Shown: in pieces, positions 11,987 through 17,739 of the stretch
How positions within the stretch are numbered: position 1 is the first letter of the stretch
Layout: each line of letters starts with the position of its first letter
From: an uncultured Methylococcaceae bacterium
GTDB taxonomy: Bacteria > Pseudomonadota > Gammaproteobacteria > Methylococcales > Methylomonadaceae
Length of the DNA: 56,576 nucleotides
Assembly (NCBI GenBank): GCA_903908165.1
Contig: CAIVQX010000190.1
Location: 1-56,576 of the forward strand
Direction: 5' to 3'
Translations under genes and position numbers: made by a program
The notes under the pieces: generated by a model
Seen by the model: only the letters and a program-made list of their open reading frames with translations
What the model was told of the DNA's origin: nothing
The model's database searches: none

Positions 11987-12802
11987 TTAAAAACTATGCT
12001 CAGCAGAAGGAAATCGCACCTGTTTAACCGACTGATAATAGCCATCTATGGCAGCTTCTATAGTGTCTGTACCTGCCATAAAGTTTTTAGAAAATCGCGG
12101 GCGTTTATGCACCCCTATATCAAGCATGTCATAAAGCACCAATACTTGTCCGTCACAGTCAATACCCGCGCCGATACCAATAACAGGAATACTAAGCTGA
12201 GTACTTATTTCTTTAGCAAGCTCTGCCGGCACACATTCTAATACCAACATCGCTGCACCTGCCTGCTGCAACTGATAAGCATCGGTCATAATTTGTTTAG
12301 CCTCAGCCGGCTCTTTTCCTTGAAGCTTATAAGTGCCCAACTGGTTGATCATTTGCGGCAACAACCCTAGATGGCCACAAACAGGAATTCCTTGATCAAC
12401 TAAAAAACTAACTATTTCAAAGCGAGGACCTTCCAGTTTTACCATTTGTGCACCACCCACCTGCATTAACTTTGCTGCATTTTTAGCTGCATTAGCAGGT
12501 GTGCTGTAACTCATAAACGGTAAGTCTGCAATAACGAAAGCCCTCTGCCTAGCTTTACTGACACAGCGTGTATGGTAAACCATATCAGTAATAGTTACAG
12601 GAAGTGTTGTATCACAACCTTGAATAACCATTCCTAAAGAATCTCCAACCAGCATCATGTCAACACCCACCTTATCAATTAAAGCACTAAAGCTGGCGTC
12701 ATAAGCAGTCAAACAGGTAATTTTTTCACCGCGCTGCTTCATGGCAGCAAGATCATTAACTGTTAAAAGAGGTTTTACAGGGTTGTTATTCATTGGCTTC
12801 AT
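11987..12802 (-). CDS. panB: 3-methyl-2-oxobutanoate hydroxymethyltransferase
   Basis: 271 residues from ATG 12802 (E. coli 264). Motifs: LTAYDASFSALI, MLVGDSLGMVIQG (metal and ketoacid binding), VKLEG, GIPVCGHLGL and PVIGIGAG. It transfers a hydroxymethyl group from 5,10-methylenetetrahydrofolate to alpha-ketoisovalerate, the first committed step to pantoate. The frame continues upstream to 12844, but that would run 41 bases into folK; ATG 12802 has a GGA nine bases ahead and gives the family's normal N-terminus. ATG 12793 is an alternative. Confidence 0.97.
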   Translation of the reverse strand: MKPMNNNPVKPLLTVNDLAAMKQRGEKITCLTAYDASFSALIDKVGVDMMLVGDSLGMVIQGCDTTLPVTITDMVYHTRCVSKARQRAFVIADLPFMSYSTPANAAKNAAKLMQVGGAQMVKLEGPRFEIVSFLVDQGIPVCGHLGLLPQMINQLGTYKLQGKEPAEAKQIMTDAYQLQQAGAAMLVLECVPAELAKEISTQLSIPVIGIGAGIDCDGQVLVLYDMLDIGVHKRPRFSKNFMAGTDTIEAAIDGYYQSVKQVRFPSAEHSF

Positions 12803-12803
12803 T

Positions 12804-13307
12804 TCAATTAATCCGTTTGAGCCCCGATAATGGGCACTTGGCAATTAGATCGACAATAGAGCCCTTATTTGGAACATATAACTCCGGAGCAATCTCGAAC
12901 AAAGGGCACAAAACAAAAGACCTTTCTTCAATGCCTTTATGAGGAACAATCAAATCAGGCTCATCAATTTCCTGGTCGCCATAGGTCAATATATCCAAAT
13001 CTAATGTTCTGGCCCCCCAACGCTCACCAGTTCTAATACGTCCTTGTATATTCTCAATATGTTGCAAATTACGAAGTAAATCCATGGGTAACAATTTTGT
13101 TACCACACCCATTACGGCATTGACATAATCAGGTTGATCTTGAGGTCCCATAGGTAAACTGTGATATAAACTGGAAAAGGTCATCTCTTGGACACCTTCA
13201 ATTGCAGCAACTGCAATACGCGCTGATTTAATTTGTACAATAGGATCGACAAGGTTACTGCCCAAGCCAATATAAGCAATAACAGGGGGGCTTAATGAGG
13301 TTTGCAT
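12804..13307 (-). CDS. folK: HPPK, 6-hydroxymethyl-7,8-dihydropterin pyrophosphokinase
   Basis: 167 residues (E. coli 159). The HPPK signature RWGARTLDLDILTYGDQ carries the two magnesium-binding aspartates, and PHKGIEERSFVLCPL matches the C-terminal conserved block. It transfers pyrophosphate from ATP to hydroxymethyl-dihydropterin in folate synthesis. The gene lies between pcnB and panB, the same order as in E. coli, and abuts panB. The link makes sense because PanB consumes a folate one-carbon unit. Confidence 0.97.
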   Translation of the reverse strand: MQTSLSPPVIAYIGLGSNLVDPIVQIKSARIAVAAIEGVQEMTFSSLYHSLPMGPQDQPDYVNAVMGVVTKLLPMDLLRNLQHIENIQGRIRTGERWGARTLDLDILTYGDQEIDEPDLIVPHKGIEERSFVLCPLFEIAPELYVPNKGSIVDLIAKCPLSGLKRIN

Positions 13308-13362
13308 AGTTAATCGATATTCATAAAGTTCAAAGCGAAAACAACCACTTCCAATTTATAAT

Positions 13363-14733
13363 CTAAACCTCTTTTTCGGTAGTACTATCTTTGCTCTTTC
13401 CACGATAACTTCTTTTTCGCCCTACTTTGTTACCTGGCGCTTTACGTGGTGGTCTGGTCATTTTTCTTTGTTCATTTTCATCAGCAACCTGATATTTTTC
13501 CCACCACTGAGCGACCTCTAAATCTGCTCCACCCGTCTCTGCGCGCAACAATAGAAAATCATAACCTGCTCTGAATCTGGGATGGGCAAGCAAACGACTG
13601 GGCTTAGAACCCACCCGTATATTAAACTTGGGCTGTAAGCTCCAGACCTCACGCATTGCCATAGTAATATGACGAGGTAATGCCGTACTTTTAATCTGTA
13701 AAGAAATTATTTCGTTAGCTGCTTCTTGATAAGCCATAAACTCTACCATGCCACGAGCCATCATTTCTTGCGCCCGAGTCTTAACTGGTTCCCACAAAAA
13801 AGCAGCAAATAAAAAATAGGCGGTGACAGTCCTACCCTCAGCGATTCTATTGTCAGAATTATCCAAAGCTTTAATCAATAATAACCGCGGAAACCCATCA
13901 TCCTCAACCGACAAAGATCTTTCTGTTGCTGGAAATAATATTTGAAACAGCCCGTAATGTCTCAACATTTCAAATGTTTGCAACCCATAACCGGACAATA
14001 ACAATTTTAATGTCTCATCATAAAGCCGCGCAGAAGGTATACTGGACAATAAATCTGCAACTTTATGCATTGCCGCTTCACAATCCGGATGCAATCTGAA
14101 GCCCAACTTAACCGCAAAACGAACCGCTCGTAGCATCCGCACCGGATCTTCGCGGAACCGAGTTTCAGGGTCACCAATAAGTCTTAACGTGGCGGCTTGA
14201 TGATCAGCCATACCCGATACATAATCCACCACCGAAAAATCTTTTATATTGTAGTAGAGTGCATTGACCGTAAAATCGCGGCGCCAAACATCCTCCTCAA
14301 TAGTGCCATAAACATTATCGCGCAATAAGCGGCCCTCATTATTAAGCACCTGCTTGTCATTTTGAATCTCTGATGCACCTCTGAATGTTGCAACTTCTAT
14401 AACTTCTCTGCCAAAATGCACATGTGCCAAACGGAACCTGCGTCCAATCAACCGACAATTACGAAATACTTTTCTAATTTGTTCTGGATCAGCATTAGTT
14501 ACGACATCAAAATCTTTAGGTTCTCGCCCCAACAATAAATCGCGCACACAACCGCCAACAAGATAAGCACTGAAGCCTTCTTTTTGTAGCTTATAAAGAA
14601 CCTTCAGTGCATTATCACTAATCTGTGAGCGTGAAATATTGTGCTCAGACCGCTTATAAATCCTGACTAGTGCGGCGGTTGGTTCAGCTCTATTTCTAGC
14701 TGGATTAATCAATTTTCTAAAGAAATTTAAAAT
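13363..14733 (-). CDS. pcnB: Poly(A) polymerase I, likely AUU start
   Basis: 456 residues if translation begins at ATT 14733. The class II nucleotidyltransferase core shows LVGGCVRDLLLG and the catalytic aspartates in KDFDVV; RNCRLIGRRFRLAHVHFG is the signature that separates poly(A) polymerase from CCA-adding enzymes. The C-terminus is strongly basic (RPPRKAPGNKVGRKRS), as in E. coli. PcnB adds 3' poly(A) tails that target RNAs for decay. There is no ATG near the N-terminus. The open frame has TTG at 14712 and ATT at 14733; the ATT start adds an N-terminus MLNFFRKLI that matches ANFCRKVL of E. coli PcnB, and AGGG and AGAGG lie just upstream. E. coli pcnB is known to start at AUU. Confidence 0.93.
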   Translation of the reverse strand: MLNFFRKLINPARNRAEPTAALVRIYKRSEHNISRSQISDNALKVLYKLQKEGFSAYLVGGCVRDLLLGREPKDFDVVTNADPEQIRKVFRNCRLIGRRFRLAHVHFGREVIEVATFRGASEIQNDKQVLNNEGRLLRDNVYGTIEEDVWRRDFTVNALYYNIKDFSVVDYVSGMADHQAATLRLIGDPETRFREDPVRMLRAVRFAVKLGFRLHPDCEAAMHKVADLLSSIPSARLYDETLKLLLSGYGLQTFEMLRHYGLFQILFPATERSLSVEDDGFPRLLLIKALDNSDNRIAEGRTVTAYFLFAAFLWEPVKTRAQEMMARGMVEFMAYQEAANEIISLQIKSTALPRHITMAMREVWSLQPKFNIRVGSKPSRLLAHPRFRAGYDFLLLRAETGGADLEVAQWWEKYQVADENEQRKMTRPPRKAPGNKVGRKRSYRGKSKDSTTEKEV

Positions 14734-14811
14734 GGCCTCTAACCCTATTTGTCGTTATTTATGGCAATCATACCATTTGCTTCATTCTATCCTAAAATCA
14801 ATCTTCTTTTT

Positions 14812-14841
14812 TTTACATTACCCTTTCGATTATAGTAAAAT
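14812..14841 (+). promoter_or_regulatory. Candidate sigma-70 promoter for the 59-residue ORF and RDD gene
   Basis: TTTACA at 14812-14817 and TAAAAT at 14836-14841 are separated by 18 bases, five of six matches to each consensus hexamer. It points toward the small membrane ORF about 110 bases downstream and lies in the divergent gap opposite pcnB. Confidence 0.5.
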
Positions 14842-14950
14842 CACAATGCTGGTTTTTACAAGCGCTCATTGTAAATTTAAGTGGATATAAAGATCAGGCA
14901 ACCATTTTTAAACATTCGCACTAAAATTTTACGTAATTAACGGGATTGTT

Positions 14951-15130
14951 ATGTTCAAAAAGATTCTTAATGGCTTCATTGACCATCCTATATTGACCAG
15001 CATCTTTGTAGCAGATTTTGGCATTCTTCTGTTCCATAGACCCCCCTTTTTCTTTTCCCTAATAATGCTGGGATCACTAATGGGCATGTGTATGTATTTT
15101 GGTCAAAAATTAGCTTTATTTAAAGTTTAA
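14951..15130 (+). CDS. Small membrane protein of unknown function (59 residues)
   Basis: A 59-codon frame from ATG to TAA, not recognised as a known family. It begins MFKKILNGFIDHPILTS, followed by a hydrophobic region (about residues 14-29), a PPFFF break and a second hydrophobic stretch (about 33-50), so one or two membrane segments are likely. GGGA lies five bases before the ATG as a weak ribosome site. The TAA is followed directly by the TTG start of the RDD gene, which suggests coupled translation. Support for it being real: a candidate promoter upstream, the tight junction, and a protein-like N-terminus. It could still be chance. Confidence 0.55.
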   Translation: MFKKILNGFIDHPILTSIFVADFGILLFHRPPFFFSLIMLGSLMGMCMYFGQKLALFKV

Positions 15131-15598
15131 TTGTCTTCAAAAACAAAAGAACCGTTAAAATCAGGTTGCGACATAGCGTTGGCACCTGGTTTTTTTCGTC
15201 GTTTAGGGGCACAATTGTATGATGCCTTCCTTTTGATAGCACTTTTAATCTTTGCCAATGCTCTTTTATATCTATTCGCTACTGACGAATCAATAAGATA
15301 TCATCAATCACTTCACCGTAGCTACTTAGTCGCTGTTAGTTTTATATTTTACGGTTGGTTCTGGACGCATGGCGGACAGACACTAGGTCTTCGTGCATGG
15401 AAAATAAAAGTTTTGACTCTTGATCAAAAACCGATAAGCTGGAAGCAGTCTTTATTGCGGTTTATAACAGCTATCATTTCTTGGGCTGGACTGGGCTTAG
15501 GGTTCGCATGGATTTTAATCGATAAAAAACGTTATAGCTGGCATGACCACCTTTCAAAAACGGCTTTGTTTTGTGATAAGTTCCAGAAAAAAAACTGA
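15131..15598 (+). CDS. RDD-family membrane protein
   Basis: 155 residues. The RDD domain is recognisable from GFFRRLGAQLYDAFLLIALL at the N-terminus, a central GQTLGLRAWKIKV motif and the C-terminal RYSWHDHLSKTAL. Three hydrophobic segments (about 31-50, 67-82 and 110-132) imply an integral membrane protein. No ATG is available near the start; TTG at 15131, touching the stop of the preceding 59-residue ORF, is the likely initiation codon. RDD proteins have no settled general function; some are linked to ion transport. I infer membrane location only. Confidence 0.82.
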   Translation: MSSKTKEPLKSGCDIALAPGFFRRLGAQLYDAFLLIALLIFANALLYLFATDESIRYHQSLHRSYLVAVSFIFYGWFWTHGGQTLGLRAWKIKVLTLDQKPISWKQSLLRFITAIISWAGLGLGFAWILIDKKRYSWHDHLSKTALFCDKFQKKN

Positions 15599-15696
15599 TG
15601 TAACATCATTATCCTAATTTAAAGCTAATCAAGACAGTTTTTACTTGTTTTACACCGCTCACAATTACCGTAATAACCACATAAAAAATCGCCTAC

Positions 15697-17739
15697 ATGA
15701 ATAACCCATTATTATCCAATAACACCAATCTGCCTTTATTTTCAGAAATAAAAACTGAACACATTGAGCCCGCTATTACACAGCTATTGGAAGAAGCTCG
15801 TGCTGTTGTTGAACAGCATCTTAAGGCGACAACAAAATATACATGGGGAAACTTGATTGAACCGCTGGAAAATGTAGCCGATAATCTAAATAAAGCGTGG
15901 TCTCCAATCAGTCATATGAATTCGGTAGTCAATACCGACGAACTTCGCTCTGCCTATAACGCCTGCTTACCAAAACTCAGTGCTTATTCCACTGAGATGG
16001 GACAAAACGTAGGGTTATTTAATGCTTATAAAGTTATTGCAGATAGCACTGAATTTGAAACATTAGACAATGCCCAAAAAAAAATCATACAAAATGCACT
16101 ACGTGATTTTAGATTATCAGGTGTTGATCTGGATGATGAAAAAAAACAACGCTATAAAGATATTAGCCAAGAACTTTCGCGCCTTGCTAGCAACTATGAA
16201 GAAAACCTCATGGATGCCACTAATGCTTGGAGCAAAGTCATAAGAAATGAACAAGACCTAGCCGGACTGCCTGCTTCTGCAATGGCCCAAGCTAAACAAA
16301 CAGCAGAAAGCCAAGGCCAGGATGGTTGGATGATAACCCTGCAATTCCCTTCTTACCAAGCCGTTATGACTTACGCAGATGACAGGGAATTACGTCGTGA
16401 ACATTATGAAGCATATAGCACTCGCGCCTCGGATCAAGCGTCAGGTAATGAACAGTGGGACAACAGCCTCCTTATGGAAGAAATTTTAGCGCTTCGTCAT
16501 GAAAAGGCCCAATTATTAGGCTTCAAAAATTATGCCGAGTTATCTTTGGCTACTAAAATGGCAAAACAACCCGACGAGGTTATTAATTTTCTGGAAGATT
16601 TAGCCGATAAATCGTGGCGTCAAGCCCGCAAAGATTTTGCAGACCTACAAAGTTTTGCAAAGCAATATTACGGCATTAATAACCTTCAATCTTGGGATTT
16701 AACTTATTATTCTGAGAAAATGCGCCAGCATTTCTACCAATTATCTCAAGAAGAAGTTAAAGCCTATTTTCCCATTACCCGTGTCTTACTGGGATTATTT
16801 GCCGTAGTTGAAAAACTATATGGTTTACAAATATCTGAAATTAGTGACTTTGACAGTTGGCATCCTGACGTACGCTTTTTTGAAATACATGATGAATTCG
16901 GTGTGTTACGTGGCAAATTTTATTTTGATTTATATGCGCGCTCAAAAAAACGTGGTGGAGCGTGGATGGACGACTGTATTGGACGCAAAAAATATAACAA
17001 TCACATTCAAACACCCGTTGCTTATCTAACTTGTAACTTTACTCCACCAACAGGTCCTGAGCCTTCTCTACTAACGCATGACGATGTGACTACTCTGTTC
17101 CATGAATTTGGTCATGGTCTCCAACACATGCTTACTAAAGTTGATCACTTAGGCGTTTCGGGTATTAATGGGGTTGAATGGGATGCAGTCGAATTACCCA
17201 GTCAATTCATGGAAAATTGGTGCTGGGAGCACGAGGCGCTGGCATTAATGTCAGGGCATTATCAAACAGGCGAACCATTGCCAGAAGCCCTATTTAATAA
17301 AATGTTAGCCGCAAAAAACTTTCAAGCAGGCATGATGACCCTAAGACAACTTGAGTTTAGTCTTTTCGATTTTAGAATACACAAAGATTATGATCCTGAA
17401 AAAGGTGCTCGCATCTACCCCATTTTGGAACAAGTCAGAGCCCAAGTTGCCGTGGTTAATCCTCCCAAATTTAACCGCTTTGCCCACAGCTTCTCACATA
17501 TCTTTGCAGGTGGCTATGCCGCCGGGTATTACAGCTATAAATGGGCAGAAGTACTCTCCAGTGATGCTTTCTCATTATTTGAAGAAAAAGGTATTTTTGA
17601 CAAGGAATCCGGTAAATTATTTTTAACCACTATTCTTGAAACAGGCGGTAGTGAAGATGCAATGGCCTTATTTATCAAGTTTCGTGGACGCAAACCAACT
17701 ATTGATGCCTTACTCAAACATAATGGCATAGCTGCATGA
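15697..17739 (+). CDS. prlC: Oligopeptidase A (M3 family)
   Basis: 680 residues, identical in length to E. coli OpdA/PrlC. The zinc motif HEFGH is at residues 469-473 ([14 protein letters not shown]), with further conserved blocks [20 protein letters not shown] near the C-terminus and [18 protein letters not shown] before the active site. It is a cytoplasmic metallopeptidase that degrades short peptides, including cleaved signal peptides. The stop overlaps the ubiD ATG (ATGA). Confidence 0.97.

Follow-up and report, generated by a model that had tools for sequence, protein, structure and literature searches.

Comparative evidence for a selected AUU start codon of pcnB in a Methylococcales clade and for recurring weak pcnB starts in Gammaproteobacteria

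Which codon starts translation of pcnB, the gene for poly(A) polymerase, when its reading frame offers almost no ordinary candidate? The question arises in a 56,576-nucleotide stretch of DNA (the window), which is part of a 210-contig draft genome of an uncultured Methylococcaceae bacterium. The nearest relatives, taken from the best 80 of 569 matches, are uncultured Methylococcaceae and Methylobacter with ~76-95% protein identity, and the named relatives are methane-oxidising Methylococcales. The minus-strand frame at 13363-14712 is identified as pcnB by a profile match to TIGR01942 (517.5 bits). Because this score exceeds the curated cut-off of 305.65, the protein is assigned to the PcnB-type poly(A) polymerases. 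Downstream of pcnB lie folK and then panB, and upstream are divergent frames.

Read from the in-frame stop TAA at 14757, the codons are CGA CAA ATA GGG TTA GAG GCC ATT TTA AAT TTC TTT AGA AAA TTG. Neither ATG nor GTG occurs between this stop and TTG 14712, which is the sole ordinary candidate. The original prediction, made from the letters of the window, proposed instead that pcnB starts at ATT 14733, and the letters that it cited (the ATT, the TTG, upstream AGGG and AGAGG, and the absence of ATG) are present as described. The features discussed below are as follows.

13363-14733, minus strand: pcnB coding region, poly(A) polymerase I type, 456 amino acids (TIGR01942, with the ATT start as argued here)
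14731-14733, minus strand: proposed ATT start codon of pcnB (conservation among 81 relatives and changes on the tree)
14743-14747, minus strand: Shine-Dalgarno-like TAGGG at an aligned spacing of 5 to ATT (pairing score 11; of 81 relatives, 91% have G at -11)
14707-14733, minus strand: codons for the N-terminal peptide M-LNFFRKLI, which is conserved (116 of 118 Methylococcales have an LNFFKKL-like motif)
14755-14757, minus strand: in-frame stop TAA bounding the start region (codon reading)
14710-14712, minus strand: TTG, the rejected ordinary start candidate (ordinary start in 9 of 81 relatives)
12804-13307, minus strand: folK, the next gene downstream, used as a control (TIGR01498, 129.9 bits)

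Some other elements near the 5' end of the gene were noted in passing. On the plus strand, a small open frame of 59 codons at 14951-15130, read by eye from an ATG, diverges from pcnB and is followed directly by a TTG-started frame at 15131, for which no NCBIfam match was found. Also on the plus strand, an inverted repeat of 13 pairs followed by a T run (14677-14710) resembles a terminator in antisense orientation within the first pcnB codons.

The AUU start of E. coli pcnB is said to have been described by Binns and Masters in 2002. Passages of later papers state that poly(A) polymerase is held at a low level in E. coli by its AUU start together with a poor ribosome site (PMC9764084), that AUU reduces expression of E. 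coli pcnB (PMC1780047), and that the AUU-started genes of this species are infC and pcnB (PMC9410913, PMC4245954). The RefSeq annotation of E. coli pcnB begins at ATT, and we read this codon. The likeness that had been claimed between the two loci is real: they share the gene, the ATT codon, a Shine-Dalgarno sequence at usable distance, folK downstream and similar N-terminal peptides (FTRVANFCRKVL in E. coli, LNFFRKLI in the window). There are also differences. E. coli has GAGGTG as its ribosome site where the window has TAGGG, and four more codons separate its start from the NFxRK motif. Upstream, E. coli has gluQRS and dksA, and the window has divergent frames. The ATT start does extend the peptide, as had been proposed. 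However, the residues that precede the Leu encoded at TTG are the seven of MLNFFRK, rather than MLNFFRKLI.

Relatives provide a way to choose between the two codons. All sets of relatives consist of best matches up to a set limit (the best 30 per search in some cases) plus stretches chosen across families. For the window's clade, 81 distinct 5' ends were compared, corresponding to an 82-row clade of the protein tree (support 88, which is moderate) minus one row, L005, that carries a CTG two codons upstream. The 81 rows are related, and at least 15 come from one genus. The 5' ends were anchored on the peptide LNFFKKL; scoring was confined to the seven residues that follow the codon, with position 0 unused. 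The tree was likewise built from residues that exclude the start position.

In this alignment, the start column contains ATT in 78 of the 81 rows, ATC in 2 and GTT in 1; the GTT row (L039) has an in-frame ATG 14 codons upstream. The codon identity of the column, 0.963, is the highest of 179 columns, which argues that ATT is present more than by chance. Among comparison columns, the best Met column reaches 0.962 and the best Trp column 0.926, and a Lys column five codons past the start has 0.91. For the 86 amino-acid-conserved columns after the sixth that are neither Met nor Trp, the median is 0.50 and the maximum 0.86. Five other columns are mostly Ile, and these have ATT in only 22-57 of 81 rows. 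On the tree, the start codon changed 3 times versus 18-28 times for the five Ile columns, and the median for 89 amino-acid-conserved columns is 27 changes. Few tree changes and top codon identity together indicate that the column does not behave like an ordinary Ile codon. The comparison thus shows selection on the codon ATT itself in the relatives.

Pairing with the ribosome points the same way. TAGGG at 14743-14747 gives the score listed above for ATT, and TTG 14712 reaches at most 6; AGAGG ends just 2 nucleotides before ATT 14733. If pcnB instead starts at TTG 14712, the codons upstream would be an untranslated leader. In its favour, TTG is among the accepted start codons, and an open reading frame list limited to ATG, GTG and TTG begins at 14712. 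However, this position varies among the 81 relatives (ATT 18, ATC 14, ATA 12, TTG 9, CTC 8, and others), with an ordinary start codon in 9 rows only, and its ribosome site is weaker than that at ATT in 77 rows and stronger in 3. Moreover, Leu, Asn, Phe, Phe, Lys and Lys upstream of the TTG are conserved in frame: codon positions 1 and 2 are conserved at 0.83-0.99, and the third positions of the Asn, Phe and Phe codons at only 0.41-0.49. We consider the chance that TTG is the start to be negligible. The pattern that would speak for it, an ATG at or below the TTG together with unconserved extra residues, is absent from the aligned 5' ends, in which relatives conserve these residues.

The motif was also read across the order. 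Among 118 distinct Methylococcales 5' ends (with duplicates and two rows whose upstream sequence is too short, L015 and L261, left out), 116 carry an LNFFKKL-like motif, counting two rows with a weak motif (L053 and L070, 4 of 7 residues) that also belong to the 81. The first codon of the motif is ATG, GTG or TTG in none of the 116; it is ATT in 88, ATC in 20, ATA in 4, CTC in 2, GTT in 1 and TTT in 1. Two cultivable relatives, Methylomonas sp. LW13 (L050) and Methylotuvimicrobium buryatense 5G (L046), are among those with ATT, and the N-termini predicted from it are of the M-FSFFKK or M-LNFFKK kind.

A conserved stretch of this kind might also be a regulatory element of RNA or DNA, with the true start elsewhere, for example upstream. 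Such an element would account for conservation of both the codon and the Shine-Dalgarno-like G beyond what the amino acids need. However, in 32 of the 81 rows only 4-8 codons separate the in-frame stop from ATT, codon-type conservation begins at ATT, and similar N-termini elsewhere start with ATG. No Rfam family is detected at the gathering threshold within 12000-16500, and predicted folding is unremarkable (z -0.72), so an RNA element at the ATT region was rejected. A promoter scan of 14650-15000 revealed no sigma-70-like site on the minus strand. We regard a regulatory element as a very improbable explanation. The comparisons instead indicate that pcnB starts at ATT 14733, in agreement with the original prediction: a codon behind a ribosome site precedes the conserved N-terminus, in a setting that ordinary start codons do not explain.

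A stricter test asks whether a frame offers any ordinary start codon. In 30 of 119 Methylococcales pcnB frames and 19 of 121 from other Gammaproteobacteria, the stretch from the upstream stop to the conserved core has no ATG, GTG or TTG (8 loci were dropped from this test); CTG is also absent in 20 and 18 of these, respectively. The folK control from the same loci yielded no such frame (0 of 129). In all 19 cases outside Methylococcales, the best ribosome-site score of an ATT, ATC or ATA is 8-16. A caller that scores ribosome sites without regard to the codon picks AUH for 80-83% of the 119 Methylococcales pcnB genes and 63% of 140 from other Gammaproteobacteria, compared with 17-20% of 149 folK controls. 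This caller provides rough support only and fails where an ATG has no ribosome site. It is also noisy, choosing AUH for 39% of 18 loci in an order whose pcnB appears to start with ATG, after 12 of 30 were dropped; L401 was also left out of that run.

AUU is not used throughout Methylococcales. In a Methylococcaceae-like clade, the motif codon varies (ATC, ATT, ATA, CTC), and 24 of 28 rows have a CTG two codons upstream of the motif; in the remaining four, no Leu codon is present at that place. This is the fair count, because the column test for CTG used rows picked for having CTG. In Methylothermaceae-like rows, a TTG occupies the same place in 8 of 8, and the motif codon includes ATA and TTT. 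Little Shine-Dalgarno sequence is seen by eye before these CTG and TTG codons. The two clades more likely start at CTG and TTG, respectively, two codons upstream of the motif, so their rows should not be added to the tally of AUC or AUA starts. Thus, the suggestion of an AUU or AUC start across the whole order was rejected.

The leaders of some of these genes have features of their own. In L057, L061, L205, L220, L250, L251 and others, a pyrimidine-rich leader (TCCTCTG, CCCCTG) ends in the presumed CTG start. No Shine-Dalgarno sequence is visible by eye in the pyrimidine-rich leaders of the Methylococcaceae-like clade, and several leaders in this clade contain a GTAATATT-like element ~40-50 nucleotides upstream.

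The trait extends to other orders. The order of genome G148, which is probably Enterobacterales judging from its E. coli-like PcnB N-termini, has a pcnB match in 197 of 199 genomes. In 36 of 70 loci read, Arg-Cys coded by AGGTG precedes the start (one false motif hit, L409, was removed by hand), and the start codon of these loci is ATT (33) or ATC (3). The start column of these 36 loci ranks first of 70 amino-acid-conserved columns, although the loci are largely from two families, with 15 from one, and the motif used to select them is itself the ribosome site. Other loci of this order differ at the N-terminus, and ATG is present in some of them (L367, L378 and L391, for example). In the order of G342, all 16 loci read have ATC or ATT at the corresponding position, as do 7 of 9 in the order of G231 (the exceptions are L296 and L302); in one set of loci drawn on for these counts, L303-L318 were read and L319-L321 left out. 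The expectation that AUU or AUC starts of pcnB extend beyond enteric bacteria is therefore borne out by Methylococcales and by these two orders.

Strict conservation of AUU is not: besides the CTG and TTG of the sister families and the 2 ATC and 1 GTT codons within the 81 rows, some orders use ATG. One such order, that of G355, is probably Burkholderiales; pcnB is matched there in 148 of 150 genomes and has ATG in 30 of 30 loci read. This ATG directly precedes IRKLI-like residues in 28 loci and is located four codons upstream in 2. Because the N-termini are similar, these genes place the initiator where ATT stands in the window. Little ribosome site is seen by eye before the ATG codons of this order. 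Two more loci, L113 and L114, have ATG before LKKLF; we take their N-termini to be Pseudomonas-like.

A different arrangement is seen in five other loci (L074, from Sedimenticola selenatireducens; L078, from a Solemya symbiont; L081; L087; and L106). Here, pcnB lacks the N-terminal FKK peptide and apparently starts at ATA behind AAGGA or AGGAA. In L106, an in-frame ATG is also present upstream of the apparent ATA start.

Near-cognate starts have been described for a few other genes. According to passages of PMC5472188, IF3 represses the non-canonical starts of infC and of sigR. E. coli infC, with an AUU start and IF3 autocontrol, resembles pcnB in having a near-cognate start that IF3 rejects. 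It differs in encoding the discriminating factor itself, which creates a feedback loop that pcnB lacks. Streptomyces sigR, with a GTC start, shares the non-canonical start and IF3-repressed translation; codon and gene are different, and the effect of IF3 is experimental there, whereas for pcnB of the window it is predicted from sequence. In Staphylococcus, as described in parts of PMC13009471, relatives conserve the near-cognate starts of cvfC1 (AUU) and ccpN (AUA) together with Shine-Dalgarno sequences, and these starts give ~10% of an AUG reporter in poor medium, with ccpN reaching up to 30% in rich medium. These genes are unrelated to pcnB, belong to another phylum and have extended Shine-Dalgarno motifs.

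A mechanism for the window can be proposed by analogy. Initiation of pcnB would occur at AUU 14733, which is suitably spaced from the UAGGG ribosome-binding site upstream. Initiation there with formyl-Met would produce a poly(A) polymerase of 456 amino acids that begins (M)LNFFRKLI. The near-cognate AUU, a start codon that is very rare and inefficient, is expected to form unstable initiation complexes, with IF3 as the presumed discriminator, as for E. coli pcnB and infC. Unstable initiation would yield little enzyme per mRNA, and scarce PcnB would in turn keep polyadenylation, and hence RNA decay, low. Taken as a whole, a weak AUU start at 14733 behind UAGGG that would limit PcnB is the best explanation, and we hold it with high confidence.

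The occurrence of infC starts bears on the part played by IF3. A search of 41 genomes of relatives of the window gave an infC match in 36, and all 30 loci read have ATC where infC starts. Thus, the arrangement for self-discrimination by IF3 appears to exist in the window's order. No infC match was found in the window's own draft genome, whose listed completeness is 99.38%; perhaps this reflects an assembly gap. In the order of G355, 25 of 30 infC loci have AUC or AUA before an AQEK-like start (17 AUC, 8 AUA), and the other 5 fall outside the pattern used for reading; an upstream ATG is present in L434 and L449 and an upstream TTG in L421, L423, L427, L429 and L435. Because this order pairs an ATG pcnB with an AUC or AUA infC, the type of pcnB start does not merely track that of infC.

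Within the window's genus, the infC leaders (L281-L295 of L266-L295) mostly read TTGGAGGATTAG, then one codon, then ATC. In L279, a TTG also lies two codons upstream of the infC start. In this genus group, pcnB has ATT and infC has ATC, each gene keeping its own third base.

AUC is rare in the groups that use AUU (2 of 81 and 3 of 36). Because IF3 is expected to reject AUU and AUC alike, conservation of the third base must have some cause besides rejection by IF3. The ATT start might only set a low constant level of enzyme, with no regulation by IF3, which is compatible with the best explanation given above. The uncoupling of the two traits in the order of G355 fits such a constant level, and low dose is favoured over strict IF3 control because sister clades use other weak starts, CTG and TTG, with no ribosome site obvious by eye. 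However, AUU persists behind good Shine-Dalgarno sequences in two distant groups, which would be odd if only yield mattered and favours a role for IF3. On balance, a low constant level seems slightly the better bet relative to IF3-responsive regulation, and we lean toward low dose. Control of pcnB by IF3 is nevertheless plausible by analogy.

Comparison of these genes indicates the position of the start, selection on its codon, and the recurrence of weak starts (AUU, AUC, AUA, CUG and UUG) in Gammaproteobacteria. The property that is conserved appears to be weak initiation, mostly at AUU or AUC in the rows read, rather than AUU universally. This pattern suggests that low output of poly(A) polymerase has long been selected for. 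A stronger reading is possible but less likely than not. It holds that a weak, IF3-discriminated pcnB start is old and actively maintained in many gammaproteobacterial lineages, which would switch among AUU, AUC, AUA, CUG and UUG rather than settle on AUG. The capacity for polyadenylation would then depend on the fidelity of initiation and rise when IF3 activity falls.

The AUU start in E. coli has been known since 2002. A search of the open-access literature, with subscription papers mostly outside it, turned up no account of a pcnB start at AUU or another AUH codon that is conserved across Gammaproteobacteria. In the papers cited above, AUU starts figure as peculiarities of two E. coli genes, infC and pcnB. 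The comparisons indicate instead that the AUU of pcnB has been maintained in distantly related groups because selection acts on this very codon. By implication, pcnB starts predicted under ATG/GTG/TTG rules would be wrong in many gammaproteobacterial genomes. The order that has an ATG pcnB and yet AUC or AUA before infC offers a natural contrast, and thus a comparative system for studying the tie between polyadenylation and IF3. If it is true that IF3 discriminates against the pcnB start, this codon would be a conserved link from the translation-initiation machinery to RNA decay.
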